Assembly: GCA_017458125.1 (NCBI GenBank)
Contig: JAFTGB010000053.1
Location: forward strand, 1-41,453
Reading direction: 5' to 3'
Source: Prevotella sp.
GTDB taxonomy: Bacteria > Bacteroidota > Bacteroidia > Bacteroidales > Bacteroidaceae
Length of the DNA stretch: 41,453 nucleotides
Part shown: piece after piece, positions 2,014 through 16,201 of the stretch
Position numbering within the stretch: position 1 is the first letter of the stretch
Layout: each line of letters starts with the position of its first letter
The notes under the pieces: model-generated
Seen by the model: only the letters and a program-made list of their open reading frames with translations
What the model was told of the DNA's origin: nothing
Database searches by the model: none
Translations under genes and position numbers: made by a program

Positions 2014-3216
2014 TTATTTCTGCTGTTTCAACACCTTGTCTATCTCTTCAAACTGCTTGCCCATGTTCAGGTTGAGGTAGATGCGGTAGAGCGACGGAGC
2101 CCAGCGGCGACGGTCGTCGGGCATCATCTTGCGGTAGGCCTCCATGTACGGACGGGCCTTGCGGTAGAGCTCGGTGAGCTGCTTGCGGTACTTACGGGGC
2201 TCGTTTAACTGTTCCAAGGCCAGCGCACGGTTCAGGTAGACGGTGGCAATGTTGAAGTAGGGCTCGGGCATCGTGTCGTTCAGCGCTATCAAGTGTTCGC
2301 TCACCTGCAGGCACTCGTCGTAACGCTCTGACGAGAGCAGGGCTACGGAGCGTGCCAGCAGGAACAGCTGGTTGTCGCCGTTGACGTCCAAGGCACGGGC
2401 GGTCAGCGTCAGCACGCTGTCGGTACGCCCGGCCGACGTGTACCAGTCGGCCAGTCGCGGGAAGAAGTAGGGGTGCTCAGGATATTCGCTGAAGCCCTGC
2501 CGCAGCGTCGCTACGTATGCACTGTCGGCCTGTTGCCAGCGGTAGGCCTCACAGAGATATTGCAGGGTGTACTCCCGACGGGCACTGTCGCGCAAGGCCA
2601 GCGTCGCGTGCCGCAGCACACTGTCGGCATGCTGCATGCGGTAGCCGCAATAGGTAGCCCAGTAGGCCGTCAGCGGCATCAGCGTGTCGGTGTTCTGGTA
2701 GTCGTAGCCGGTGAACAGCGGCTGGCGGTCGGTGTCTATATAGGTGTCGAAGAAGGTGTAGGCGGCATCGTAGTTGCCACGCCGCACCTGGTAGGTACCG
2801 CCAAAGTAGAGGTTGCGGCGCATGGGGTTCAGCAGCATGGCATGCCGCTTGCGGTAGTCGGGGTCTACCCTGCCCTTCTTGTCGGGACGGGCGTCTAACG
2901 AGTCCAGCCCTTCGGCCACCTGAAACATGCGGTGCACCAGCGAGAAGAACTGCGCCGTGTCGTACTTCTGCTTGAGGTACAATTTCTCGTTGGCAGCCTC
3001 GTACTGGGCCACCACCGTCTTGTACCACATGAGCCACACCTTTTTGTTGTCCCTATGCTCGGGCTTCGCCAGCAGGCCGGTCATCAGCCGTTCAGCTTTG
3101 TCTAAGTCCTTGCCGCTTTTCAGCTGGGCCTGTGCTTGGTTCAGCTCCTTCTTCTGGGCAGCCGCAGTCAGCGTCAGCAGCAGCGTGCAAGCTATGGTCA
3201 TTATCCTTATCTTCAT
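2014..3216 (-). CDS. Secreted tetratricopeptide-like repeat protein
   Basis: Hypothetical exported protein of 400 residues. It begins with a signal peptide (MKIRIMTIACTLLLTLTAAAQ, cleavage likely after AAA/Q) followed by helical repeats of TPR type through the rest of the chain. It resembles the TPR protein at 12394-13614 in length, signal peptide and the start of the mature part, so the two look like distant paralogs. It probably acts in the periplasm as a scaffold, but no catalytic motif or specific function can be recognised. It has its own promoter (-33 TTTG, -7 TAATTTTG) and probably forms a single-gene transcript. Confidence 0.8.
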   Translation of the reverse strand: MKIRIMTIACTLLLTLTAAAQKKELNQAQAQLKSGKDLDKAERLMTGLLAKPEHRDNKKVWLMWYKTVVAQYEAANEKLYLKQKYDTAQFFSLVHRMFQVAEGLDSLDARPDKKGRVDPDYRKRHAMLLNPMRRNLYFGGTYQVRRGNYDAAYTFFDTYIDTDRQPLFTGYDYQNTDTLMPLTAYWATYCGYRMQHADSVLRHATLALRDSARREYTLQYLCEAYRWQQADSAYVATLRQGFSEYPEHPYFFPRLADWYTSAGRTDSVLTLTARALDVNGDNQLFLLARSVALLSSERYDECLQVSEHLIALNDTMPEPYFNIATVYLNRALALEQLNEPRKYRKQLTELYRKARPYMEAYRKMMPDDRRRWAPSLYRIYLNLNMGKQFEEIDKVLKQQK

Positions 3217-3591: not shown

Positions 3592-4023
3592 CTAATGTCT
3601 CACATTAATATCTATTTCCTGCCTGGTGCGTGAGTCATACTGATTATCACGTGTTCGGTAGTTACCGGGACGCCCGTCGACGGTGATGCGGAGGATGCGT
3701 TTCCCCTTTTTCAAGTAATCGAAGCGTGGGTCAATCAGACGGTCACAGTTATATTTGCGCGAAGCCTCGGTCTCGGCTAATCGTTGTGCTTCAGCGAGTG
3801 ACAGCTTATAGAGCTTCTGCTTGCCCTCCGGTGTGGAAATGTCGATGGTGTAGGTAATACGGTCGCCAACGGGTACCAAGTCGTAACTATTGTAGCTGCG
3901 GCCTCTGGCATCGACACCCATCCCGGTATCATAGCCACCCGCACCTGAACGTGCGCTACCACAAGAAGTGAAAGCTATTATGGCTGTGACCATAAACGCC
4001 ATTAGAAATATTCTTTTCCTCAT
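3592..4023 (-). CDS. Hypothetical lipoprotein
   Basis: A 143-residue protein starting with a lipoprotein signal peptide that ends in the lipobox AFTSC (Cys21), followed by a Gly/Ser-rich linker (GSARSGAGGYDTG) and a charged C-terminal half rich in Arg, Asp and Tyr. It is probably anchored in the outer or inner membrane. I recognise no domain. It lies 14 nt downstream of the membrane protein gene at 4038-4718 on the same strand, so the two are probably co-transcribed. Confidence 0.75.
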   Translation of the reverse strand: MRKRIFLMAFMVTAIIAFTSCGSARSGAGGYDTGMGVDARGRSYNSYDLVPVGDRITYTIDISTPEGKQKLYKLSLAEAQRLAETEASRKYNCDRLIDPRFDYLKKGKRILRITVDGRPGNYRTRDNQYDSRTRQEIDINVRH

Positions 4024-4037
4024 ATTATAAGTATCGT

Positions 4038-4718
4038 TTAGAAGTTGTAACGCAATCCCAGACCTAAAGTTCTTTCATCTCCAGAGTGATTGTTAATTAG
4101 GTCAATACCAGCTGTGAGAGCCGAACCATTGCTAAGTTGAAATTCATGCTGGAAAATAGGATTATACGAAATCATGCTATCAATTTTCTTCTTTTCTTTG
4201 TTTGCTATTATAAGAAAAGTAGTAGTGAATGCTACACCAACACCCATTGTCACACCACCAGCAATTAATCCTGTTTTGTATGCAGAACTACTATCTTGAT
4301 TGTTCGCTACTAACATAAGAACTCCTCCACCTATAACTAAAGCAGAACCTCCTATCCAGCCTATAGTCCTTAGTTTCTTTACCTTTTTGAGGGGATTATT
4401 AGTAGCATAGTCTAATTGCAGTAACGCCCTGTCATTGTATTGCTGCACACCATCATTTTGATTATTTGGCTGATAGAGATTTGTAACTTCTGATAAGTCC
4501 ACCTTCTTGCCGTTTTGATAATTGATGGTTGAAGCATCTGCGCGATTCATTACATAGTTAGAGCCGTTCAGGTCATCCCACTTTTTGTAGGTAATCTCTG
4601 AAGAGGTGAGTTCCACGACGCGACACACGACGGTCGAGCCGTCCTTCTTCACGATCACATCTTGTGCTGAGACGCTGGCTGCACACAGGAGAAACAAAAA
4701 TACTAATAACTGCTTCAT
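4038..4718 (-). CDS. Hypothetical membrane protein with signal peptide
   Basis: A 226-residue protein: signal peptide MKQLLVFLFLLCAASVSAQ, a short domain around residues 20-90 (the type that starts DVIVKKDGSTVVCRVVELTSS is common in Bacteroidota exported proteins), then two hydrophobic Gly-rich segments near 117-137 and 147-171, and a tail ending GLRYNF, like an outer-membrane C-terminus. The gene is visibly richer in A/T than its neighbours, which may mark recent acquisition. The function is unknown. It is the first gene after the structured region at 4790-4972. Confidence 0.75.
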   Translation of the reverse strand: MKQLLVFLFLLCAASVSAQDVIVKKDGSTVVCRVVELTSSEITYKKWDDLNGSNYVMNRADASTINYQNGKKVDLSEVTNLYQPNNQNDGVQQYNDRALLQLDYATNNPLKKVKKLRTIGWIGGSALVIGGGVLMLVANNQDSSSAYKTGLIAGGVTMGVGVAFTTTFLIIANKEKKKIDSMISYNPIFQHEFQLSNGSALTAGIDLINNHSGDERTLGLGLRYNF

Positions 4719-4789
4719 TTTACTTGCTTTTATTAAGTTAATACTAAGTTTTCCTATCCATTCAACAAGTTAGCACTAACTCATAGATA

Positions 4790-4972
4790 TGAAAAGAGTG
4801 CGCCCTTGCCATATCCGTCACAGGCTCACCACAAGCCCTCAATCATTATGGAGAAACGCACACTTAGTGTGTACTCCAAATATGATTGAGTTTTGCTCGT
4901 TGTTCCTTTCCGAGGTGGTGATTCGTGACGGAATTTGAGCAAATAAAATGTCGTGCCTCATGCGAAGCACGG
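4790..4972 (-). ncRNA. Structured RNA candidate: 6S-like RNA or operon leader
   Basis: On the minus strand the transcript from the promoter at 4975-4982 would fold into a long rod. The stems are CGTGC/GCACG at the 5' end, CCGTCAC/GTGACGG (4925-4931 with 4815-4821), CACCAC/GTGGTG (4915-4920 with 4827-4832), CTCAATCAT/ATGATTGAG (4882-4890 with 4838-4846), and an apical helix GGAG/CTCC enclosing ACAC/GTGT (4850-4877). A large asymmetric internal loop carries a side stem CTCG/CGAG. A rod with a central bubble and side hairpin, about 180 nt long, is the shape of 6S RNA. A cis-acting 5' leader of the gene at 4718 is equally possible. No family consensus sequence was recognised. Confidence 0.45.
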
Positions 4973-4974
4973 TA

Positions 4975-4982
4975 CAAAGGTA
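4975..4982 (-). promoter_or_regulatory. Promoter -7 box upstream of the structured region
   Basis: The minus strand reads TACCTTTG, matching TAnnTTTG. Transcription would start near 4969, just before the first hairpin of the structured RNA candidate. Confidence 0.6.
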
Positions 4983-5030
4983 AACAATATTTCTTAAAAC
5001 CTAAAAGAAAACTGCTGTTTTTTTGAAAAT

Positions 5031-5065
5031 AAAAAAATCCCGTCCACTTCGGCAGTGAACGGGAT
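5031..5065 (-). terminator. Terminator next to the island's left repeat
   Basis: ATCCCGT (5037-5043) pairs with ACGGGAT (5059-5065), extended by CACT/AGTG, and is followed on the minus strand by seven T. It is a diverged duplicate of the terminator at 12338-12374. Confidence 0.75.
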
Positions 5066-5074
5066 GCTTTTTTT

Positions 5075-5116
5075 CTGACCTTTTTTACTTCATGTCGGCT
5101 TCAGCAGCCTTGGTCT
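5075..5116 (-). repeat. Left 42-bp direct repeat, displaced 3' end of a TPR gene (attL candidate)
   Basis: Identical in 42 of 42 bases to 12384-12425. On the minus strand it encodes TKAAEADMK followed by the stop (5085-5087). Upstream of this on the minus strand the resemblance to the TPR gene fades at once. Confidence 0.8.
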
Positions 5117-5354
5117 GGAGTATCGTCAGCATACGTTGATGACTATGTTCGCCCTGTGGAATGCAGAATACCTGCGTATGTATGAAGGCGGCTTGCGCTC
5201 GAAGGCATCATTAGAGAGATACCAGACGGTATATAAGCATGTCGGTGCCTTCCTGCGTCAGCACTATAAGGTCTCAGACATGGCCTTGAAGGAGATTGAG
5301 CCGTCTTTCATCTCGGACTTTGAGGTCTTCTTGAAGACAGAGAGGAACCCGTGA
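5115..5354 (+). pseudogene. Tyrosine recombinase/integrase remnant (N-terminal core-binding domain only)
   Basis: An open frame from about 5115 to the stop at 5352-5354 encodes about 79 residues that fit the SAM-like N-terminal domain of Bacteroidota phage-type integrases (ASLERYQTVYKHVGAFLRQH, then SFISDFEVFLKTERN). The arm-binding N-terminus is missing because the 42-bp repeat joins at that point, and the whole catalytic domain with its R-H-R-Y residues is missing downstream. After the stop another frame runs VKSIKFRRQVEYELFFVR to a stop near 5405, perhaps another gene fragment. It cannot be active on its own, but its position beside the repeat supports a former integrative element. Confidence 0.7.
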
Positions 5355-5522
5355 AGTCCATCAAGTTCCGTAGGCAGGTGGAGTATGAACTATTCTTTGT
5401 GCGCTGATAACAAAAACACCTCGGATGAATTCTCTATCGGATTCATTCGGGGTGTTCTATTGTAAACTATTACGTCAATACACTTATGGTATAATGGAAG
5501 TAAAAGATTGGATTTACTTTGT
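5355..5522. other. Non-coding stretch inside the island
   Basis: Holds the short out-of-frame tail after the integrase remnant and the terminator at 5411-5456. Nothing else is supported. Confidence 0.5.
5411..5456 (-). terminator. Strong stem-loop terminator after the FMN reductase gene
   Basis: AACACC (5415-5420) through GATGAAT pairs with ATTCATTC through GGTGTT (5441-5456), about 16 bp including G-U pairs. On the minus strand it is followed by TTTTTGTT, about 65 nt after the stop of the gene at 5523. Confidence 0.75.
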
Positions 5523-6191
5523 TTATAAAACATCTGCATTGGCCTGTTCTACTAAATGTTTTCCCAATTCAAAGGCATTCTCCAGGTCTTTGGGGAACTG
5601 CGTCTCGTGTACAGCAGCCTTGTGAGCAGCATCTATCTGTGCTGCGTCGTAGCGGTTGTAGTCGTTAAACTGGAAAGTGTCGTAGGAGCGGAGGATGGCG
5701 GCGGGGCCGAACATACCCAACTGACGGGCTGATGTGTCCATCAGTATGTCGTAGCCGTTGCCCTGATACATCTCGTCGCTGGGGCAGTTCATCGTGAAGA
5801 TGGCGGCAGAGTGTTTGGGTTTGTTCACGATGGGGTGCATGAAGTCGGAGTAGTTGACTGCGGGGAAGATAAGCCGCTCCATGAATGCACGGAAGTTGGC
5901 CGATGGATAGTGGCAATAGACAGGCGAGCCGCATACCAACACGTCGGCTTCCATCGCTTTCTCCAAAATAGGTTTCATGTCGTCCTTGAACGAGCAGATG
6001 CCTTTCTTGCCTCCCTTTATCTTGCAGGCGAAACAAGACATGCACCCCTTGTAGTTCAGGCTGCGGTCATAAAGATTCACCATTTCCACCTCGGCACCAG
6101 CCTCACGGGCACCGTCCATGGCACGTTTCAAGAGTTGTGCCGTATTGCTGTTCTTACGCGGACTTCCGTTGATAAATAATGCTTTCGTCAT
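5523..6191 (-). CDS. Flavodoxin-fold NADPH-dependent FMN reductase family protein with cysteine cluster
   Basis: Predicted cytosolic flavoprotein of 222 residues. The FMN phosphate loop is INGSPRKNSNT at 7-17 and a second FMN contact is GSPVY at 88-92. Between them Cys50, Cys53, Cys56 and Cys66 form a C-x2-C-x2-C-x9-C set, as in iron-sulfur flavoproteins of anaerobes, so a cluster next to FMN is plausible. I chose ATG 6191 because the flavin loop follows directly; the frame extends 21 codons further upstream without family-like sequence. It lies just after the radical SAM remnant and ends before the terminator at 5411-5456. The electron acceptor is unknown. Confidence 0.85.
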   Translation of the reverse strand: MTKALFINGSPRKNSNTAQLLKRAMDGAREAGAEVEMVNLYDRSLNYKGCMSCFACKIKGGKKGICSFKDDMKPILEKAMEADVLVCGSPVYCHYPSANFRAFMERLIFPAVNYSDFMHPIVNKPKHSAAIFTMNCPSDEMYQGNGYDILMDTSARQLGMFGPAAILRSYDTFQFNDYNRYDAAQIDAAHKAAVHETQFPKDLENAFELGKHLVEQANADVL

Positions 6192-6201
6192 TGTTCTGAT
6201 G

Positions 6202-6706
6202 TTATAATGTTCGTTTGTTTGTTCTGATAGTTTCGAGTGCATCCATGTCGCCATGCCGGATGATGCCGTCCAGAGTGGATAATATCTGTGGCTTCCTTTT
6301 CAGGAAATCGGGACCGCTGAGGTTAGCGGCTATTGTGTGGTGGGTGATGAATTTACAGTCGCAGGTGAGGTTTTCTACAAACGTGCGCAACTCTTCAAGC
6401 ATCTCCTTCTCCGTCAATGGTGTGAACTCGCCACGCTCGGCTTCCTCCAAGAGCGGGGTGCCAGGGAAAAGCGTCAGGCCTCCTGTGCCAACGAGCATCG
6501 GCTTCAGTTGGTTGAAAATCTTGGCTGAATTGACGGCATGCTCGTGACTGTGTTCACATCCTGCTACACCGTTGAGGAACGTCACCCAATACTGGATGCC
6601 AACCTCCTCCAATTTGTGGCATTGCTCTGGAAGTTACCTCCCGGCAAAGCACAGATGCATCTTTCTGCCGAATAGTGCTCAGCATGTTGTCAAGTTCGTC
6701 GTTCAT
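6202..6706 (-). pseudogene. Radical SAM protein gene with internal deletion
   Basis: The 3' part (6202-6612) encodes the C-terminal end of a radical SAM protein of the Elp3/MiaB-like HemN-related type (EEVGIQYWVTFLNGVAG, LVGTGGLTLFPGTPLLEEAERGEF). The 5' part (6706 down to about 6610) encodes MNDELDNMLSTIRQKDASVL in another frame. The two are joined near 6610 by a frameshift, and the middle with the CxxxCxxC cluster motif and most of the barrel is absent. Intact members are about 300 residues, so roughly 130-150 codons appear lost. The fragment sits between the MBL gene and the FMN reductase gene on the same strand, marking a formerly intact operon position. Confidence 0.7.
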
Positions 6707-6708
6707 AT

Positions 6709-7503
6709 TCAAATCTCAATTGTTGTCCCGCATGAGAAGGCCTGAAGCCGTTCACCCATGACATCCCTCAGCGTGGCAAACACGGCATCACCCGTGCAGT
6801 GGCTGGTATGGAAGTGCGTATGCGGATAGGAGTCCGTCAGCCTGTAGGCGAGTTCACGGAGTTCATCCTCCGACTCATGCCCGTCGAGCAGATGGAAGCC
6901 ACCTACGACCTCGTTCACGGAAAAAGGGGTGGCAGCAAGGATGTTTTCCAGTCCGCTGTGGGCACAGCCTGTAAACAACAAGCCGTCAGTATAGAGGGCC
7001 AGCTCATGACGGAAATCGTCTTGGATATATGCTCCATCAGCATTCTGAACAAAGAGGTGCTGATTACCCTTCGGCATCGGATGCACCTGCGGGATGTGGG
7101 CAATGACATACAGGTCATCTGATATCCTTCCGCTGTGTTCAACAGTCAGCAGCCTTTCGGCAAGTATCTCTGGCCACTCAGTGGTGATGCTGTGAAGATA
7201 ACGGCGCTTGGAAAAGAATTTCCCGCTGACGGCATTTGGAGAGGCTATGACTTTGGCCGTCTCATTGACAGCCATGAAGTGCTTCAAACCTCCTGCATGG
7301 TCACTGTGTCCGTGTGAGATGAACACATAGTCCACCGTGCTGAGGTCTATCCCCAACCGTTCCGCATTGCGAATCAGCATGTCGCTGGCTCCCGTATCGA
7401 GCAAGATACGATGATGGTCGGTTTCTAAGAGTATTGATAGCCCGTGCTCGGTTTCCAATACAGGGTCGTTCGTGCGGTTATCTACCAGAACAGTCCACTT
7501 CAT
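6709..7503 (-). CDS. MBL-fold metallo-hydrolase
   Basis: A 264-residue metallo-beta-lactamase-fold protein. The zinc-binding motif is SHGHSDHAGG at 63-72 (His64, His66, Asp68, His69), with further likely ligands in TGCAHSG (around 178-184) and near the C-terminus (HFHTSHCTGD). It resembles the COG1237 group of small archaeal and anaerobe hydrolases annotated near methanopterin synthesis, though that activity is not implied here. Its stop lies 2 nt before the start of the radical SAM remnant, and it follows the NifX-like gene by 12 nt, so the set is an operon. The substrate is unknown. Confidence 0.88.
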   Translation of the reverse strand: MKWTVLVDNRTNDPVLETEHGLSILLETDHHRILLDTGASDMLIRNAERLGIDLSTVDYVFISHGHSDHAGGLKHFMAVNETAKVIASPNAVSGKFFSKRRYLHSITTEWPEILAERLLTVEHSGRISDDLYVIAHIPQVHPMPKGNQHLFVQNADGAYIQDDFRHELALYTDGLLFTGCAHSGLENILAATPFSVNEVVGGFHLLDGHESEDELRELAYRLTDSYPHTHFHTSHCTGDAVFATLRDVMGERLQAFSCGTTIEI

Positions 7504-7515
7504 ATTTTCCTCATA

Positions 7516-7893
7516 TCACTCATGATGGTGGTGATGACCTCCGCAACCGTCGTGATGGCAACTGCCGTCACCGTATTCAATGGTGTCATCGAGATACATG
7601 GCCAGCACTTGTTCTACTGGCAGGGCTGGTGCTCCGGCATGGACTTCGATACCCAGTTGGGCGAGCATCTGTACTGCTCCCTGACCTAATCCTCCGCAAA
7701 GTACATCCGTACAACCCTCGGCAGCGAGGAAGCGGGGCATGGCTCCATGCTCATGCTCTGGCGACTGCTTGATGACGGACTCCTTGATTTGTCCGTCCTC
7801 GACGGTTACGATCGTTACTTGTGGAGCCTTGCCGAAATGCGGCCACAACATTCCCTCGTTGGTTGGAATGGCGATTTTCTGATTCTGTTTCAT
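7516..7893 (-). CDS. NifX/NifB-type dinitrogenase iron-molybdenum cofactor-binding family protein
   Basis: A 125-residue protein of the NifX/NafY/VnfX fold (Pfam Nitro_FeMo-Co). It opens KIAIPTNEGMLWPHFGKAP and has the family segments GCTDVLCGGLGQGAVQML and LGIEVHAGA. Stand-alone members in non-nitrogen-fixing anaerobes are thought to bind or carry metal-sulfur clusters. The tail GDGSCHHDGCGGHHHHHE (about 108-125) has two Cys and seven His and is a likely metal-binding appendage. It is 4 nt downstream of the C_GCAxxG_C_C gene. No nitrogenase genes are present, so it is not evidence of nitrogen fixation. Confidence 0.88.
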   Translation of the reverse strand: MKQNQKIAIPTNEGMLWPHFGKAPQVTIVTVEDGQIKESVIKQSPEHEHGAMPRFLAAEGCTDVLCGGLGQGAVQMLAQLGIEVHAGAPALPVEQVLAMYLDDTIEYGDGSCHHDGCGGHHHHHE

Positions 7894-7897
7894 CGCT

Positions 7898-8299
7898 CTA
7901 TTTATTTTGATTCAACTGATCTAATTCTTCTTCCAAAAATTCTGCTGCATCGGCTACGCAGTCAGGACATGCTCGTAAGACGACTTTTGTACCCACGCCC
8001 TTTAGCAATTTGCACTGGGTAGCACCATTGCGCTCTTGAAACTTGGTCATAATTTGGCGCATCTGCTTCATCGACTTCACCTTGTCCTTGTTAGCCAGTC
8101 CCAATACAAGACCTGCACCAACAAGTGCGCCACACGTACCTTCCATGTTGCCCATGCCGCCGCCAAAGGCTCCGGCAATGTTCATGGCTTCTTCTTCACT
8201 GATACCTGCTATGTCAGCGTATGTGTGCAGAACGGCTTGCGCACAGTTATGACTATTGCATCGTTTCTTCTCCGCTGCTATATCCTTTCTCGTTACCAT
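7898..8299 (-). CDS. C_GCAxxG_C_C family redox protein
   Basis: A 133-residue cysteine-rich protein of the C_GCAxxG_C_C family. The family cysteines are visible as NCAQAV (Cys19), GTCGALVGAG (Cys56), Cys96 and a CPDC pair (111-114). Such proteins are common in strict anaerobes, often beside flavoproteins or thioredoxin-like genes, and are presumed to be redox-active or metal-binding, but no activity is established. It heads the NifX-MBL-radical SAM-FMN reductase series on the minus strand with spacings of 4, 12 and 2 nt. Confidence 0.85.
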   Translation of the reverse strand: MVTRKDIAAEKKRCNSHNCAQAVLHTYADIAGISEEEAMNIAGAFGGGMGNMEGTCGALVGAGLVLGLANKDKVKSMKQMRQIMTKFQERNGATQCKLLKGVGTKVVLRACPDCVADAAEFLEEELDQLNQNK

Positions 8300-8350
8300 T
8301 TTTGCAATATATTCTTAGTGTCGTTCGACATGATTTTATCAATAACGGAT

Positions 8351-8719
8351 TCACTTGGCTGTTATATATCCTAATGCCACTGCTATAATTCCCAATGCCA
8401 CGTTCCCTAATGTATATAACGTGAAAAGCATGTAATTATTGGTTTGTAGCATCGCCAGTCCCTCTTTTGAGAATGTGGAGAAGGTGGTGAAACCGCCACA
8501 GAAACCGACCATGAGTAGCAGGGAGAACACCGGGGAAAGGTTCTGGAAACGACTTGTCAGGCCCCATAGGATGCCTATCAACAGGCAACCAACAATGTTT
8601 ACTGCAAATGTCCCCCACGGGAAACCACCATACGTCTGCCCTATGAGAAGTGATATAAGATAGCGGCAGATGCCGCCTATACCACTACCTATTCCGACTA
8701 ATACAATATCCTTTATCAT
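8351..8719 (-). CDS. crcB: Fluoride channel CrcB/FluC
   Basis: Small inner-membrane protein of 122 residues with four hydrophobic segments that works as a dual-topology dimer exporting F-. Hallmarks are GSGIGGICRY (11-20), GTFAVNIVGC with the conserved Asn41 (36-45) and GFCGGFTTFSTF (72-83), which carries the Phe-box and the Na+-site region. I chose ATG 8719; the frame continues 16 codons upstream without family-like sequence. It lies 57 nt after the DUF389 gene on the same strand. I saw no fluoride riboswitch motif upstream. Confidence 0.92.
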   Translation of the reverse strand: MIKDIVLVGIGSGIGGICRYLISLLIGQTYGGFPWGTFAVNIVGCLLIGILWGLTSRFQNLSPVFSLLLMVGFCGGFTTFSTFSKEGLAMLQTNNYMLFTLYTLGNVALGIIAVALGYITAK

Positions 8720-8776
8720 TTGCGTACTTACGATTATTTCCTGTTCGTTAGATATGGAATCTATCAATCCATACTC

Positions 8777-10126
8777 TTAATCCTTGTTGACAATAACCAG
8801 GCTGTCGGCTTTGATGCGCTTCTGTAGCCAGTCGTTCAGCTTCTGTGCATCTACTTTTGAGAGTTTGCTGCCTTCTGAACACCGGATGATGGCTGCCACG
8901 TAGGAGCAGGTGGCGGCAGAGTCACGGCTGAACTCTTTCACGTGCGAGAGGCTGAAATGACTGACCTGAGGGAAGAGCGTGGCCATCTCTGGACGGAGGT
9001 CGGCGGCGAGCTGGTCTATCCTCGTATATCGGGAAAGTTGCTCGCTGAGCAGTGCGTTTTCGGCAGAGAGGCCTGCCTGCTGTCGGCGTTCCTGTTCGTA
9101 GCTGGTGTTGAGATGGCTTAGCTGTTCGTTGAGCGTCAGCAGGCTGTCGCTCTGCGTTCCCTGAATGATACGCAACCGGTAGCCCTCCAAGCCGTACCCG
9201 GCCATGTGGCGTTCTGCCTCCAAGCGCTTCGCTTCGGTAATCTCACGCCCCACAGCCACAATGCGCAGTTTCAGACTGTCATTGTCGATGTTGTCAGAGA
9301 TAATCTGTGTGCCGCGCTGGCTCAGTTCCGCCTTGATGAAGTGCCTCACGTTGCTGTCGAAGACATGCTGCTGCACGATGCGAACGGTCATATAGGCAGC
9401 AGGCAGCATGGTCAGCACGATGATTATCATCAGGTAGCGGTGAGCCTTCCGTGCCTTTTCGGGCGACAGGAACTCACGGCGGTGAAAGTGCATCAGCCGC
9501 ACGCCACAATATGTCGCCAAGGCAATGAATACGGTGTTGATGAAGAATAGGTAGAAGGCTCCGAGGAAATACATCAGGTGCCCTGTAGCCAGTCCGAACC
9601 CTGCCGTGCAGAGCGGAGGCATCAGGGCGGTGGCAATGGCTACGCCGGGGATGACATTGCCCTTGCCTCGTGTGCAGAGGGCGATGATGCCCGCCGCACC
9701 GCCACAGAAGGCGATGAGCACGTCGTAGAGGGTGGGCGACGTGCGGGCCAGCAGTTCCGACTGTGCCTCGCCAAGCGGGGTAATCAGGAAATAGACCGTG
9801 GCTGTCAGTACGCTGATCAGTGTAGCAACACCGAAATTCTTTGCCGCCCGTCTGAGCAGGTCGAGGTCGTTGGTACCCACAGCCAGTCCCATGCCGATGA
9901 TGGGTCCCATCAGCGGTGAGATAAGCATGGCACCGATGATGACTGCCGTGGAATTGACGTTAAGACCCAATGAGGCGATGAATATAGCGAAAATGAGCAC
10001 CCAAAGCTGGGCACCGCGAAAACTTACTCCGCTGCTTATCTGCTCGACAATCTCGCGCTCGTCTTCCTTGTCATGCATCAGGTTAAAGTAGTAACCTGTC
10101 CGTTTTGTCAATTCTGCTATCGTCAT
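8777..10126 (-). CDS. DUF389 (TIGR00341-like) integral membrane protein
   Basis: A 449-residue protein. Residues about 35-260 hold the DUF389 core: several transmembrane segments with the signature NSTAVIIGAMLISPLMGPIIGMG and GVAIATALMPPLCTAGFGLATG. Residues about 260-449 form a soluble C-terminal extension with a probable coiled coil (LNEQLSHLNTSYEQERRQQ). DUF389 proteins are membrane proteins of unknown transport role. In this window it precedes crcB, so the pair may handle ions, but this is inference. No clear promoter was found upstream. Confidence 0.85.
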   Translation of the reverse strand: MTIAELTKRTGYYFNLMHDKEDEREIVEQISSGVSFRGAQLWVLIFAIFIASLGLNVNSTAVIIGAMLISPLMGPIIGMGLAVGTNDLDLLRRAAKNFGVATLISVLTATVYFLITPLGEAQSELLARTSPTLYDVLIAFCGGAAGIIALCTRGKGNVIPGVAIATALMPPLCTAGFGLATGHLMYFLGAFYLFFINTVFIALATYCGVRLMHFHRREFLSPEKARKAHRYLMIIIVLTMLPAAYMTVRIVQQHVFDSNVRHFIKAELSQRGTQIISDNIDNDSLKLRIVAVGREITEAKRLEAERHMAGYGLEGYRLRIIQGTQSDSLLTLNEQLSHLNTSYEQERRQQAGLSAENALLSEQLSRYTRIDQLAADLRPEMATLFPQVSHFSLSHVKEFSRDSAATCSYVAAIIRCSEGSKLSKVDAQKLNDWLQKRIKADSLVIVNKD

Positions 10127-10179
10127 TTCTTTTAATGATTTTTATCAATCATTATTTATTTGCTGGAAATTATTCTGTC

Positions 10180-10497
10180 TTATATGACAACCGCTGTTCC
10201 ACTGGTGGCTACCATCAACATAGAATTAGTCTCGCCTATGGTCTCGTAGTCGATGTCAATGCCCACGATGGCGTTGGCTCCTATAGCCTGTGCACGCTCC
10301 ATCATCTCCTTCATCGAAGTGTCCTTAGCCTCGCGCAGCACCTTTTCGTAACTGCTGGAGCGTCCGCCTACGATGTCGCGGATGCCTGCGAAGAAGTCCT
10401 TTACGAAGTTTGCTCCGATAATCGTTTCGCCTGTCACCACACCCTTGTACTCGCGGATAGTGTGACCCTCAATCTGTTGTGTAGTTGTAAGTATCAT
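10180..10497 (-). CDS. YbjQ/UPF0145 family protein
   Basis: A 105-residue protein of the YbjQ (UPF0145, putative heavy-metal-binding) family. Its sequence follows the family from end to end: [40 protein letters not shown]-like segment at 68-84 and a C-terminal hydrophobic strand. These proteins are thought to form a pentameric ring; the metal-binding claim comes from the family name, not from residues visible here. It lies 50 nt downstream of the TIGR04076 gene on the same strand. Confidence 0.85.
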
Positions 10498-10547
10498 AAC
10501 TGCTTGTCTTTTATTGTTTATGAATAATCGTTGTTTACTGATAGATG

Positions 10548-10850
10548 CTAATCATCGATTGCCTCAATATAGAAACTGAAGGGACGGAAACCGTCGTTGC
10601 AACTAATCATTGCGCTCATCGGGTTCTTCATCCAGCCGTCGTAGAAGTTGCCCTCGCCTCTGGCCAATGACTCCACGAACTCCCGCATGGAGTACCATGC
10701 TGCAGAACACATACCCTCGGGCTGCCTGCCGTCAACGGAGATCCATTGCTGGCCCTCCGTGACGTCGCAAGTATGCTCGATAGGGTTCTCGTACTTTGCC
10801 ATCAGGTCGGGATATTCCGTCTGGCGGATGGCGGTGATGCGGACCTTCAT
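10548..10850 (-). CDS. TIGR04076 family protein
   Basis: A 100-residue cytosolic protein matching the TIGR04076 type: [20 protein letters not shown], then a Cys-containing segment ([11 protein letters not shown]), [12 protein letters not shown] and a C-terminal [15 protein letters not shown]. The three cysteines (in TCDV, MCSA and SCNDG) are family-like and suggest redox or metal chemistry, but no function is known. Its ATG (10848-10850) directly abuts the stop of the flavodoxin-fold gene at 10851, so the two are translationally linked. Confidence 0.8.
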
Positions 10851-11366
10851 TTACAGATTGTTGACAATAGCCTGTATCTTAGCCTTGGTCTCGTCGGTCT
10901 TCTGCTCGTCAATCTTTGCCGTGACGATGCCAGAGTCCTCAGCGTGCCAGTAGTTGCGGATGTCGTGGTACTCAGCCGTTGCGCCGGAATAAACACCAGG
11001 CGAATAAGAGGACATCAGCAGGGCCATCTTCTTCACCTTGGTGGGAGCATTGACGCAGTACATGCGCTGGATGGGAGCCTGAATCTGTGCGCAGAGCGTG
11101 AAGTAATAGATAGGTGCAGCCAGTACCAGCACCTCGGCCTCGGCCATCAGCGGGTACAGCTCCTGCATGTCGTCCTTCTGGATGCAGGCGCCATTGCCCT
11201 TGTTGTGACAATACTCGCAAGCCAGACAGCCTGCAATCTTCTTGCGCGACACGTTGACCAGCGTCACCTTGTGACCTGCTGCCTCGGCAGCGTTCTTGTA
11301 CTCTTCCGCCATCCAAGCGGTGTTTCCGTTGGCTCTCGGAGAAGCCTGTAAAATCAGAATGTTCAT
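10851..11366 (-). CDS. Flavodoxin-fold NAD(P)H-dependent FMN reductase
   Basis: A 171-residue flavoprotein. The FMN loop is LQASPRANGNTAWMA at 6-20, the second FMN contact is APIYY (about 84-88), and Cys47, Cys50, Cys53 and Cys61 form a C-x2-C-x2-C-x7-C set. It is a shorter relative of the protein at 5523-6191, so the island encodes two related iron-sulfur-flavoprotein-like reductases. It is the first gene of a minus-strand unit with TIGR04076 and probably YbjQ, transcribed from the divergent promoter region at 11413-11450. Confidence 0.87.
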   Translation of the reverse strand: MNILILQASPRANGNTAWMAEEYKNAAEAAGHKVTLVNVSRKKIAGCLACEYCHNKGNGACIQKDDMQELYPLMAEAEVLVLAAPIYYFTLCAQIQAPIQRMYCVNAPTKVKKMALLMSSYSPGVYSGATAEYHDIRNYWHAEDSGIVTAKIDEQKTDETKAKIQAIVNNL

Positions 11367-11411
11367 AATCGTATTTGTTTAGTAATCTTCTAAAAGTGCT
11401 TAAATGTATCT

Positions 11412-11451
11412 GCAAAATTAGCGATAATCGCTGAATTATGGCTAATTTTGC
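11412..11451. promoter_or_regulatory. Divergent promoters around a 13-bp palindrome
   Basis: A minus-strand -7 box TAATTTTG (11413-11420) drives the FMN reductase and a plus-strand TAATTTTG (11443-11450) drives the hydrolase. They are the arms of an 11-bp inverted repeat GCAAAATTAGC/GCTAATTTTGC. Between them lies the palindrome AGCGATAATCGCT (11420-11432), a candidate operator. Neither promoter has a clear -33 TTTG. Confidence 0.6.
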
Positions 11452-11471
11452 ACCGATTATTAGGAAAGTTT

Positions 11472-12158
11472 ATGAAGAAGGTTCCGATTAAGCGAGGGCA
11501 GAGTGATGCTTGCATCGACTCTGCTGAGCGGGAGGAAGCTCGACCGAAGGTCAAGATACTGTTCCTGCACGGATTCTTTGCCAGCGGACAGTGCCAGCCA
11601 GCGTTGGCACTGAGGGAGGCTTTTGAGGGAAGTGCTGAGGTCATTTCGCCAGACCTGACTACGCATCCGAAGGAAGCTTTGGCACTGATTCGTGATGTTA
11701 TTGACCGCGAACGGCCTGATGTATTGGTGGGCAATAGCTGTGGTTCGTTCTATGCGCAGATGGTAGCTCCAGTTGTCGGGATTCCTGCCTTATTGGGCAA
11801 TCCGCATTTCCGCATGACGGACTTTCTGAGCGCGCGGATTGGACGGCACGAATATAAGTCGAAGCGGTCTGATGGCAGGCAGGAGTTCATAATCGACGAG
11901 CCGCTGATTGCCGAGTTTGCCGAGATGGAGGCTCACCAGTTCGACTGCTGCAACCCTTATTATAAAGATAAGGTATGGGGAATCTTCGGTGAACAGGACA
12001 CATTGGCGAGGTTTGAGCCGTTGTTTCTGGAGCACTACAACCGCTCATTCCATTTCCCCGGTGCCCATACTCCGACGACAGAAGAGGTGAAGACGTGGTA
12101 TGTGCCATTGGTAGAGAATCTGATGATGGAGTACCCTATAAATAAAGGTAAGGACTGA
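11472..12158 (+). CDS. YqiA-like alpha/beta hydrolase
   Basis: A 228-residue alpha/beta hydrolase of the YqiA/YcfP esterase type. The oxyanion region is LFLHGFFASG (30-39), the nucleophile elbow is GNSCG (Ser89), and the likely acid and base are the Asp in FGEQDTLARF and the His in FPGAHTPT near the C-terminus. ATG 11472 was chosen because AGGAAAG precedes it by a few bases; an upstream TTG frame start at 11448 would lie inside the promoter box. It is the only intact plus-strand gene of the island and shares a divergent promoter region with the FMN reductase. The substrate is unknown. Confidence 0.85.
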   Translation: MKKVPIKRGQSDACIDSAEREEARPKVKILFLHGFFASGQCQPALALREAFEGSAEVISPDLTTHPKEALALIRDVIDRERPDVLVGNSCGSFYAQMVAPVVGIPALLGNPHFRMTDFLSARIGRHEYKSKRSDGRQEFIIDEPLIAEFAEMEAHQFDCCNPYYKDKVWGIFGEQDTLARFEPLFLEHYNRSFHFPGAHTPTTEEVKTWYVPLVENLMMEYPINKGKD

Positions 12159-12161
12159 CGC

Positions 12162-12260
12162 ATGAAACAGATTGAGATTGTAGGAAGACAGGTCTGGGTA
12201 CACCAGTGGAGTGGCTATCAGACGGAAATCTGCAAAAAGTTTGGAAGATACGCAAAATAA
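12162..12260 (+). CDS. Possible 32-residue small ORF
   Basis: ATG 12162 starts 3 nt after the hydrolase stop and encodes MKQIEIVGRQVWVHQWSGYQ and 12 more residues, ending at the stop 12258-12260. No relative is recognised. It could be a small protein of the same transcript, the start of a truncated gene at the island edge, or chance. Confidence 0.25.
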   Translation: MKQIEIVGRQVWVHQWSGYQTEICKKFGRYAK

Positions 12261-12269
12261 TGCGTATCT
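12246..12269. other. 8-bp inverted repeat after the small ORF
   Basis: AGATACGC and GCGTATCT form a perfect 8-bp stem with an 8-nt loop. It has no T-run on either side, so it is not a standard intrinsic terminator, but it is the only hairpin after the plus-strand hydrolase transcript. Confidence 0.4.
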
Positions 12270-12337
12270 CCACAGTGTCAAAACAGCAATGCTCTGACGA
12301 AAAAACATGTAAAAACCTTCTGGCTGTTTTTTGCGAC

Positions 12338-12374
12338 AAAAAATCCCGTCCACCTTTCTTGCGGTGAACGGGAT
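12338..12374 (-). terminator. Terminator of the gyrA-linked TPR gene
   Basis: ATCCCGT (12343-12349) pairs with ACGGGAT (12368-12374), extended by CACC/GGTG, and on the minus strand is followed by TTTTTT. It lies 20 nt after the stop at 12394. Its diverged twin is at 5031-5065. Confidence 0.85.
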
Positions 12375-12383
12375 GCTGTTTTC

Positions 12384-12425
12384 CTGACCTTTTTTACTTC
12401 ATGTCGGCTTCAGCAGCCTTGGTCT
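12384..12425 (-). repeat. Right 42-bp direct repeat, functional 3' end of the TPR gene (attR candidate)
   Basis: Identical to 5075-5116 and in the same orientation. It covers the last ten codons and the stop of the TPR gene and the start of its 3' untranslated region. Confidence 0.8.
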
Positions 12426-13614
12426 TGGGGTCGTCGGCACCGTAGCGGCCGTAGTAGGCCTGATAGCGGTTGTAACCCCAGTTAGCCTGCGCCTTGGTGG
12501 GGTCGAGCTCCTTAGCCTTGTCGAAGGCGGCGATGGCCTCGTCGTAATACTTCTGACCCTGTGCATTGTCGGTAGCGTTGGCACCGAGCACGCTGAGGCA
12601 GGCACCTAAGTACGTCCACACGATAGCGTTGTCGGGTTTGGCCTCGCTGGCCTTGCGCAGCCATTTGGCACCCTCCTCGGCATTGTTGTCGTTGACAGCC
12701 ATCAGACCCTTGTTGGCCAGTGCGGTGAACGAGTTGGGATACTTAGCCAGATGGTTGTCCAGCAGGGCGGTCTGGGCAGCCTTGTCCTTCAGACCCTCGT
12801 ACATGGAGTTCAGACCGTCGAGCACGACGTCGTTCTCAGGCTCCTGCTCGTACATCTGCTTCAGCTGGTTGATGTAGCCTAACGAGTCCTCCTTGGTCTT
12901 CAGCATCGAACGCATGGCGTAGAGCTGGAAGTTGATGGCGTCGGCCTTCTGCTGCGGGTCGCGCTTGGCCACCTCGAAATACTTGTTGGCGCGCTCCACC
13001 TGCTGAGCCTGGAAAGCATAGCGTCCGGCAAAGAAAGCCACCTGTCCGATGTACTCCTTCTCGGCATTCTTGTCCATGGCGGCGAAGAAGGGGTTCTCGG
13101 CAGCGTCGACGAAGGTGCCCCAGTATTTCAGCACACCGGCGTCGTGCCCCTTCTGGGCTTCGGCCTGTCCGATGTTGACCAGGTTGGGACGCACGGCCCA
13201 GATGCGCTGGGCATTCTTCTCGTTGTACTTAGGATTAATCTTACCCTTGGCATTGGGCAGCTGGTCGTACTTGTCGCACTCCAAAGCAGCGGCAATAGCG
13301 TTGCAGATGCCGTCGGCAAGCGACAGGGTGTCGTAGGGTTTAGCCTTGTCGGGCGTACCCATCTGAACGGCGAGCTGATTCTCGGCGATGGTACCCGTCT
13401 CCTTCTGCACCTGATCCATGGCCAGGTCGACGAGTTTGTTGTAGGCCTTGGCCTTCTCGGCATTGTCGGCCATCTGTTCCAGGTTAGCCTTCAGCAGCTG
13501 TTCTGCCTCGGCATAGCTTTTAGACTTCATCACGGCCTTCAGGGCGTCACTGTCACCGGCAAAGGCCGTAGCTCCTGCTGCGAGCATCATTGCCATCATC
13601 ACTAATTTTTTCAT
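12394..13614 (-). CDS. Exported tetratricopeptide repeat protein downstream of gyrA
   Basis: A 406-residue protein with a signal peptide (MKKLVMMAMMLAAGATAFAG) and TPR units, clearest in the C-terminal half (ALANKGLMAVNDNNAEEGAKW, IVWTYLGACL with DEAIAAFDKAKELDP). It is probably periplasmic and acts as a protein-interaction scaffold; the role is unknown. It lies about 49 nt after gyrA on the same strand, an arrangement I associate with other Bacteroidales, so the two are likely co-transcribed. Its last codons form one of the two direct repeats that bound the putative island, so integration would have restored the reading frame. Confidence 0.85.
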   Translation of the reverse strand: MKKLVMMAMMLAAGATAFAGDSDALKAVMKSKSYAEAEQLLKANLEQMADNAEKAKAYNKLVDLAMDQVQKETGTIAENQLAVQMGTPDKAKPYDTLSLADGICNAIAAALECDKYDQLPNAKGKINPKYNEKNAQRIWAVRPNLVNIGQAEAQKGHDAGVLKYWGTFVDAAENPFFAAMDKNAEKEYIGQVAFFAGRYAFQAQQVERANKYFEVAKRDPQQKADAINFQLYAMRSMLKTKEDSLGYINQLKQMYEQEPENDVVLDGLNSMYEGLKDKAAQTALLDNHLAKYPNSFTALANKGLMAVNDNNAEEGAKWLRKASEAKPDNAIVWTYLGACLSVLGANATDNAQGQKYYDEAIAAFDKAKELDPTKAQANWGYNRYQAYYGRYGADDPKTKAAEADMK

Positions 13615-13663: not shown

Positions 13664-16201
13664 CTACTGCACGTCGATGACGGGAGCGTCGGTCTCAGGC
13701 GTCTCGGGGTTCTCGACATCCTCAGAATACTCGACATCTTCGTCTTGGCTCGACATGACCTTGCATACCGAGGCGATGGTGTCGTTCTTCTTCGTCAGGT
13801 TGATGAGCCGCACGCCCTGTGTGGCACGGCCGGCAACGCGGACGTCAGCACACTTCAGGCGGATGAGCACGCCGGACTTGTTGATAATCATGAGGTCGTT
13901 CTCGTCAGTCACCACCTTGATGGCTACTAGGCGACCGGTCTTCTCAGTCACGTTGAGCGTCTTCACACCCTTGGCGCCACGGGCGGTCTTACGGTAGTCC
14001 TCTACCTCGGAGCGCTTGCCATAGCCGTTTTCCGACACGACCATGATGGTCTCCGTCTGCGGGTCGTTGACGCACACCATGCCTACCACCTCGTCGTCGC
14101 CACCGTCGAGTCGCATGCCGATGTTACCGGCAGCGGTACGACCCATGTCGCGTATCTCGCTCTCGTCGAAACGAACGGCACGGCCGTTGCGGTTGGCCAA
14201 CAGCAGTTCGTTGTGGCCGTTGGTCAGGCGTACGCCTACCACCTCGTCGTCCTCTTCCTTGAAGTTGATGGCGCGGATGCCGGCGGCACGGACGTTCTTG
14301 AAGGCGTCGAGACAAGTCTTCTTGATAATGCCCTTCTTGGTGGCAAACACGACGTAGTGCGACTTGAGGAACTCCTCGTCGTTGAAGTTCTTGATGCGCA
14401 GCACGGCGTTGATGGCGTCGTCAGGCTCAATGTTGAGCATGTTCTGTATAGCACGGCCCTTCGAGTTCTTGTCACCTTCGGGAATCTCGTAGCACTTCTG
14501 CCAGTAGCAGCGACCCTTCTGGGTGAAGAAGAGCAGCGTGTTGTGCATGGTGGCGGGATAGATGTACTCTGTGAAGTCGTTGTCGCGGTGGCGGGCAGCC
14601 TTGGCACCGACGCCTCCCCTGCCCTGTTCGTGGAACTCGTCGAGCTTGGTGCGCTTGATGTAGCCCATGTGCGAAATGGTGATGACTACGGGGTCGTCGG
14701 GATAGAAGTCCTCGGCATTGAACTCGTGGTCGAAGGGGATAATCTCGGTGCGGCGCTCGTCGCCGTACTTCTCCTTGACTTCCTGCAGCTCCTGCTTCAT
14801 AACCTCCTTGCAACGCTCGGGGTTGTTAAGGATTTCCTCCAAGTCGGCAATGAGCTTCATCAGGTCGTCGTACTCCTGATGCAGCTGGTCGACACGCAAG
14901 CCGGTGAGCTGCGACAGGCGCATGTCGACGATGGCCTTCGACTGCAGCTCGTCCAGATTGAAGCGCTGCTCCAAGTTGCGCTGGGCGTCGCTCGGGGTCT
15001 TCGAGTTGCGGATGATGTGGACCACCTCGTCGATATTGTTGACGGCGATAATCAATCCCTCTAAGATATGGGCACGTTCCTGAGCCTTGCGCAGGTCGTA
15101 CTTGGTACGGCGGATGGTGACGTCGTGGCGATGCTCAACGAAGTATTTGACACACTCCTTGAGCGTCAGCAGACGGGGACGGCCCTTCACCAGCGCAATG
15201 TTGTTGACAGAGAACGACGACTGCAAGGCAGTCATCTTGAACAGTTTATTCAGCAACACGTTGGCATTGGCGTCGCGCTTGCAGTCGACGACGATGCGCA
15301 TGCCCTGACGGCCCGACTCGTCGTTGACGTTAGCCACACCCTCAATCTTGTGCTCGTTAGCCAGGTCGGCAATATACTTCACCAAGTCGGCCTTGTTGAC
15401 ACCGTAGGGTATCTCGGTCACTACTATCTTGTCATGCGTCTCGGTGGTCTCTATCTCGGCCTTGGCACGCATCACAATACGTCCACGTCCCGTCTCGTAG
15501 GCATCGCGTACGCCCTGCAAGCCGTAGATGTAGGCTCCTGTGGGGAAGTCGGGACCGGGAATGAACTGCATGAGCCCGTCGGTGTCGATGTCGGGGTTGT
15601 CGATGTAGGCACAGCAACCGTCAATAACCTCGCCCAGGTTGTGGGTAGGCATATTGGTGGCCATACCTACGGCAATACCGTTTCCGCCGTTCACCAGCAG
15701 ATTAGGAATTTTGGTGGGCATGACGCTGGGTTCCTGCAACGAGTCGTCAAAGTTGTTGACCATGTCGACGGTATCCTTCTCTAAGTCGTCCATGATGTGC
15801 TCACCCATCTTCGACAGGCGGCACTCCGTGTAACGCATGGCTGCGGGGGAGTCGCCGTCGACGGAGCCGAAGTTACCCTGACCGTCCACCAGCGTGTAGC
15901 GCATGTTCCACTCCTGAGCCATGCGCACCAGTGCGCCGTAGACCGATGAGTCGCCGTGGGGGTGATACTTACCAAGCACCTCACCGACGACGCGGGCACA
16001 TTTCTTATAAGGTTGGGTGGAGACGTTATTGATGCCCATCATACCGTAAAGGATACGGCGGTGCACGGGCTTGAAGCCGTCACGCACATCAGGCAAGGCG
16101 CGGGCCACGATAACCGACATGGAGTAGTCGATGTAGGAGGATTTCATTTCCTCCTCAATGTTGATTTTAATGATTCTGTCGTTGTCGTAAGTCTGATCCA
16201 T
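13664..16201 (-). CDS. gyrA: DNA gyrase subunit A
   Basis: The 845-residue breakage-reunion subunit of gyrase, which introduces negative supercoils as an A2B2 complex with GyrB. The active-site tyrosine is Tyr124 in AMRYTE. The quinolone-resistance region is [17 protein letters not shown] (80-96), with Ser85 and Gly89 at the E. coli Ser83 and Asp87 positions. The GyrA-box, needed for DNA wrapping, is QGRGGVG at 526-532. The C-terminal beta-pinwheel is complete and ends in an acidic tail rich in Glu/Asp. The start ATG 16201 ([10 protein letters not shown]) is family-typical. A promoter at 16374-16381 gives an unusually long leader of about 165 nt. Confidence 0.98.

Follow-up and report, generated by a model that had tools for sequence, protein, structure and literature searches.

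A displaced TPR gene tail beside a cut integrase gene in Prevotella favors error-prone recombination over an attachment site

The window analyzed here is a 41,453-nt stretch of DNA that makes up one whole contig of a draft genome (3.37 Mb, 86 contigs, 88% complete) from a gut-type Prevotella. It carries the last bases of a gyrA-linked gene for a TPR-repeat protein (TPR_A) twice, and the second copy adjoins a piece of an integrase gene. Genomic islands that insert into gene 3' ends are bounded by direct repeats of that 3' end, attL and attR. The sequence-only reading of this DNA saw such an island, with a protein gene as the target, and the question is whether an integrase built the locus or whether the inserted DNA arrived by another kind of recombination. 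The window has no tRNA genes, which rules out a tRNA gene as the insertion target, and an Rfam scan of the window at the gathering threshold gave no match. GC content was rejected as an island marker; in 1-kb bins the island has 47–58% GC, overlapping the 50–60% of most flanking bins, and the bin at 4001–5000 has 39%. The features of the locus are collected in Table 1.

Table 1. Coordinates of features at the TPR_A locus (a dot means that no strand is assigned).
Feature	Position	Strand	Evidence
gyrA, upstream neighbor of TPR_A	13664..16201	-	Pfam DNA_topoisoIV, DNA_gyraseA_C
TPR_A, 406-aa TPR-repeat protein; proposed homologous crossover anchor	12394..13614	-	weak Pfam TPR_11; gyrA-adjacent homologs in relatives
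42-bp repeat in working TPR_A 3' end	12384..12425	-	sequence repeat
Terminator 3' of working TPR_A	12323..12383	-	12-bp stem, -23.3 kcal/mol, z -4.9
Cargo	5523..12158	.	two FMN-reductase-like genes, MBL-fold gene, FeMo-Co-type protein, C-GCAxxG-C-C protein, CrcB-like, DUF389, PRK02877-type, TIGR04076, esterase-like
Cargo open frame	6202-6612		no family match
Tyrosine recombinase fragment, ~residues 100-180 of 415	5109..~5349	+	Pfam Phage_int_SAM_5, homologs
Junction between TPR tail and interior of integrase gene	5108..5116	.	CCTTGGT common to tail and nearest intact integrase gene
42-bp repeat, displaced TPR_A tail copy (scar)	5075..5116	-	sequence repeat
Terminator adjoining displaced tail	5014..5074	-	12-bp stem, -21.9 kcal/mol, z -5.4
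Two small genes (4038-4718, 3592-4023) and upstream region	3592..4982	-	pair found elsewhere too
TPR_B, ancestral downstream neighbor of TPR_A	2014..3216	-	gene order in relatives

The two tail copies are identical over 42 bp, a core that lies within a wider repeat family (65 nt, 95% identity) and within a gapped alignment of 103 bp (88% identity, E = 1.1e-30). One copy ends TPR_A and the other lies beside the integrase remnant, and each has its own terminator. All of this agrees with the sequence-only reading, as does the divergence of the two terminators. Reading both folds shows that the stems match except for a double-sided change in the innermost pair, and that the loops and T tracts differ. 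The displaced copy was rejected as the end of a full TPR paralog, since none is present among the open frames at 5000–5500. The TPR_A end was matched in 38 of 398 genus genomes; the source genome is one of the 38, and among the remaining 37 the highest identity is 87%. All 37 matches start at position 12390 or deeper inside the gene, and therefore the terminator is common to none of them. When each of 52 TPR_A loci was searched for another copy of its own tail, the matches were short or on the terminator side everywhere except in one genome (G068, described below), where the matching sequence is the tail of a sufS-like gene.

An in-genome duplication would give a similar picture. The TPR_A tail and its terminator would have been copied or moved beside the integrase fragment, with no foreign DNA involved at that step. 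The homology of the two terminators speaks for such a rearrangement, and so does the finding that none of the 398 genomes besides the source matches past the TPR_A stop region. However, the diverged loops combined with a paired stem change suggest that both terminators perhaps worked in separate lineages, under selection, and the one beside the displaced tail may still be working. The neighborhoods of the cargo genes also vary between genomes. We consider an origin within the genome unlikely.

The integrase fragment spans ~80 residues and contains no stop codon; it lacks the first ~99 codons as well as the catalytic part. The intact relatives have 415 residues and the fragment begins at about residue 100 of these, therefore the 42-bp repeat enters the integrase gene and does not end outside it. 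Matches to the fragment at E ≤ 1e-10 occur in 28 of 150 genus genomes, including the source genome, and the closest are 91% (G105), 85% (G074), and 83% (a second place in G105, and G158) identical. Sixteen putative integrases, represented by the longest open frames at loci retrieved through integrase hits, were used as queries; their matches to the window are confined to 5109–5348, so the other border does not carry the lost N-terminal part. At the junction, the nearest intact integrase gene (G105 contig C72) and the TPR tail share seven exact bases, CCTTGGT. The integrase genes of G074 and G105 contig C3 share three exact bases (CCT) with the tail, followed by a mismatch and then further matching bases. 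These microhomologies (7 bp once, 3 bp twice) were measured against integrase genes of other genomes, which stand in for the donor. The score of the 50-bp junction neighborhood was at least as high as that of 99.8% (G105 C72), 99.8% (G074), and 96.8% (G105 C3) of 3000 random pairs, and 0.2%, 0.23%, and 3.2% of random pairs, respectively, beat the junction alignment.

The distribution of the integrase was compared with that of the TPR tail. No TPR tail was found at five loci carrying intact or partial related integrases (G105, G074, G106, G098). Conversely, no integrase was detected at E ≤ 1e-4 in 52 TPR_A loci covering 0.3–19 kb downstream each (best E = 0.11; 34 of the 52 without a resolved far end), in a search that scored the controls and the window remnant as positive. 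Thirteen TPR_B loci likewise contained no integrase at E ≤ 1e-3, and the 42-bp core had no exact match in viral contigs. At two loci with intact integrases (L112 and L113), the integrase gene is followed by a conserved 112-aa gene in the same orientation and a 188-aa gene in the opposite one.

These data bear on site-specific integration, in which the TPR_A 3' end would have served as attB for an element that brought a replacement tail and terminator and later lost most of its integrase. A directly repeated gene 3' end with an integrase fragment at one border is in keeping with this history, but the border falls inside the integrase gene, the window contains the missing N-terminal part at no other position, none of the five integrase loci shows the tail, no integrase was detected in the 52 TPR_A loci, and viral contigs have no exact match to the core. 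Site-specific integration is thus quite improbable, and the join favors error-prone recombination over an att site. What stands of the earlier proposal is that DNA is inserted behind the 3' end of a protein gene and that a second copy of its tail is displaced; the integrase-made attL/attR is not supported.

The usual gene order in relatives is gyrA–TPR_A–TPR_B. TPR_B lies on the same contig less than 1.4 kb from TPR_A in 21 of 30 relatives having TPR_A, with gaps of ≤367 bp in 14 and ~1.2–1.3 kb in seven; in the remaining nine it is on a different contig (eight) or gave no match above threshold (one). The larger set of 52 TPR_A loci corresponds to about 49 genomes because three pairs (L047/L217, L048/L100, L051/L219) are each apparently one genome present in two collections. 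A TPR_B-type match starts within 250 bp past TPR_A at 16 of these 52 loci, a count that includes G016, where the nearest match is a further TPR paralog and TPR_B is ~1.2 kb away, and G074, where the TPR_A-like gene is merely 29% identical. No TPR_B was found at 34 of the 52 loci within the downstream DNA covered (0.3–19 kb each), and in one of these (G279) the gene normally next after TPR_B sits at 4.8 kb. The 11 closed gaps that were viewed have a TPR_A–TPR_B spacing of some 20–50 bp by eye and no obvious terminator. The distance in the window is 9.2 kb. Six named relatives of TPR_A come from Prevotella or Prevotellaceae metagenome-assembled genomes, some of them ruminant-derived.

This gene order points to an empty site in which TPR_A is directly followed by TPR_B. 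Empty sites therefore do occur in relatives, as the sequence-only reading had anticipated, but not in the form it gave; TPR_A followed directly by the sequence at 4975–5030 was not found, and the flank is TPR_B. The DNA up to ~4982 matches the upstream region of homologs of the 4038–4718 gene at other places and goes with that gene. The small-gene pair (compare L182, L183, and L184) is rare, with the 4038–4718 protein matched in three of 199 relatives, and a second copy is present on contig C18 of the source genome. An assembly artifact at the repeat is very unlikely; exact repeats of 42 bp can mislead assemblers and the draft has 86 contigs at 88% completeness, but an overlap join needs more than the 7–9 bases common to integrase and tail at the junction, and both outer flanks (gyrA–TPR_A, and TPR_B with the 172–1917 gene) agree with relatives.

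Island proteins had no match in the 52 TPR_A loci at E ≤ 1e-6. The MBL-fold gene is present in 51 of 200 genomes, including the source genome, and the island was rejected as one conserved unit since none of 15 fetched MBL-fold neighborhoods keeps the gene order of the window. Short coding-like pieces lie at both island borders (5350–5460 and 12163–12261), with an inverted repeat after the left one; the small peptides at 5351–5404 and at 12163 matched, among the fetched loci, the window's own sequence only.

Two of the 52 TPR_A loci have TPR_B behind other inserts, of 9.95 kb in G417 (L238) and 12.7 kb in G278 (L239). The G417 gap encodes VanW-like, GmrSD-type, leucine-rich-repeat, and rhaM-like proteins, and the G278 gap encodes a MutH-type (type II) restriction enzyme, a C5 methylase, and a DUF3987 protein. 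Different cargo thus lies between the same conserved genes in the window, G417, and G278, and the gap is closed in most resolved relatives. Neither the G417 nor the G278 gap contains a displaced TPR_A tail. The gap gathers restriction genes, of the GmrSD type in G417 and as a restriction enzyme with a methylase in G278. Directly 3' of TPR_A in G106 (L098), G154 (L217), and G321 (L219) are HU-like, primase-like (CHC2, D5_N, BT4734-like), and peptidase M15 genes, which may belong to a mobile module of a different kind.

A second scar is present in G068, another genome of the genus. At L244:11182-13775, a TPR_A gene 57% identical to that of the window lies behind a sufS-like gene, which we take to be sufS, and is followed by a copy of the sufS-like tail (125 bp, 94% identity, 1320 bp from the original). 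The TPR gene end overlaps the tail copy by seven bases. A related gene in G079 has a similar codon at its end, which makes CCGCT a likely shared sequence at the join. The G068 scar has the same design as that of the window: a whole anchor gene, inserted DNA, and the displaced anchor tail. Elsewhere in G068, gyrA, a distant TPR gene (28%), and TPR_B are still together. In none of the other 39 genomes searched did the sufS–TPR arrangement turn up as a single match.

Tail scars were rejected as a common feature. The 79 loci compared (1.32 Mb), a non-random sample because they had been selected by TPR_A, cargo, or integrase matches, contained two clear scars, and 40 stretches (528 kb) of the source genome contained no repeat pair touching an open-frame end. 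Among the other repeat pairs of the 79 loci, two touch a short open-frame end (L145, L228) and one touches the heads of two large frames (L100/L048).

We lean, by a modest degree, towards homologous recombination in TPR_A coupled to a microhomology join (homology-facilitated illegitimate recombination, HFIR) that left the recipient tail as a scar. The TPR_A–TPR_B gap would be the place of entry for foreign genes. Donor DNA with TPR_A, then cargo genes, then a broken integrase would have recombined with the recipient, at one end through a homologous crossover inside TPR_A (or gyrA) that we infer, and at the other by illegitimate joining at a few bases common to the integrase fragment and the recipient TPR_A tail. 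The last ~42 bp of the recipient TPR_A and its terminator would then remain as a scar, separated by 7.3 kb from the functional gene. The proposal builds on the observed repeat, cut integrase, junction bases, usual gene order, cargo in two relatives, and G068 scar. To these it adds a postulated donor and recipient, the homologous crossover, and the mode of DNA entry. Several points count against HFIR. The process usually deletes recipient DNA, and at this locus a tail is duplicated. The donor or recipient state is present in no close strain, the best of the 398 genomes being 87% identical over the TPR_A end; two of three intact integrase genes share just CCT at the junction before a mismatch; and clear tail scars are rare.

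A broader and more tentative idea, possible rather than probable, is that Prevotella acquire chromosomal genes behind conserved-gene 3' ends, through homologous recombination on one side and a microhomology join on the other, and that tail scars such as those of TPR_A and of the sufS-like gene in G068 remain. The gyrA–TPR gap would then let DNA in without an integrase and would accumulate restriction genes as well. A full-text literature search on illegitimate recombination with natural transformation or competence in Prevotella or Bacteroides, with subscription journals mostly outside its coverage, found nothing. If the one-sided reading is true, tail scars are a way to count recombinase-free gene acquisition.

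The locus resembles attL/attR islands in that a 3'-end direct repeat bounds the insert and integrase sequence lies at one end. It differs in that no intact integrase is present, the repeat border is within the integrase gene, and related elements with an integrase at the same site were not detected in the 52 TPR_A loci. When a repeated gene tail adjoins an integrase fragment, attL/attR is the ready interpretation; at this locus the exact junction and the relatives point away from it, a useful caution for island finders. Hotspots that lack integrases and recombine through their flanking core genes are a general phenomenon, according to excerpts of one report (PMC5635113), and minimal mobile elements are their Neisseria form in excerpts of another (PMC3898611). 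The window shares with these the varying gene sets, same conserved flanks, and lack of an integrase, but the excerpts describe homologous recombination on both sides (PMC5635113, PMC3898611), and the window has a microhomology join on one side. In Vibrio T6SS clusters, the available portion of the report describes old effector 3' ends displaced by DNA entering behind a conserved anchor, with orphan immunity genes, and its authors propose HFIR (PMC5361080). New DNA behind a conserved anchor and an old gene 3' end shifted downstream are common to both systems, but the cargo of the window does not consist of toxin–immunity pairs and its anchor gene is complete again. HFIR itself, in the available portion of an account covering Streptococcus pneumoniae, Acinetobacter baylyi, and Pseudomonas stutzeri, has one homologous end, the other joined at 3–10 bp of microhomology, and usually deletes recipient DNA (PMC3240628). 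The window likewise would have one end with homology and has the other joined at short microhomology; unlike HFIR, the event is known as a scar alone, its homologous end is a proposed one, and a gene tail is duplicated where a deletion would be usual. The underlying process is thus already known (HFIR), and on the preferred reading the window is a further instance of it, behind a protein gene.
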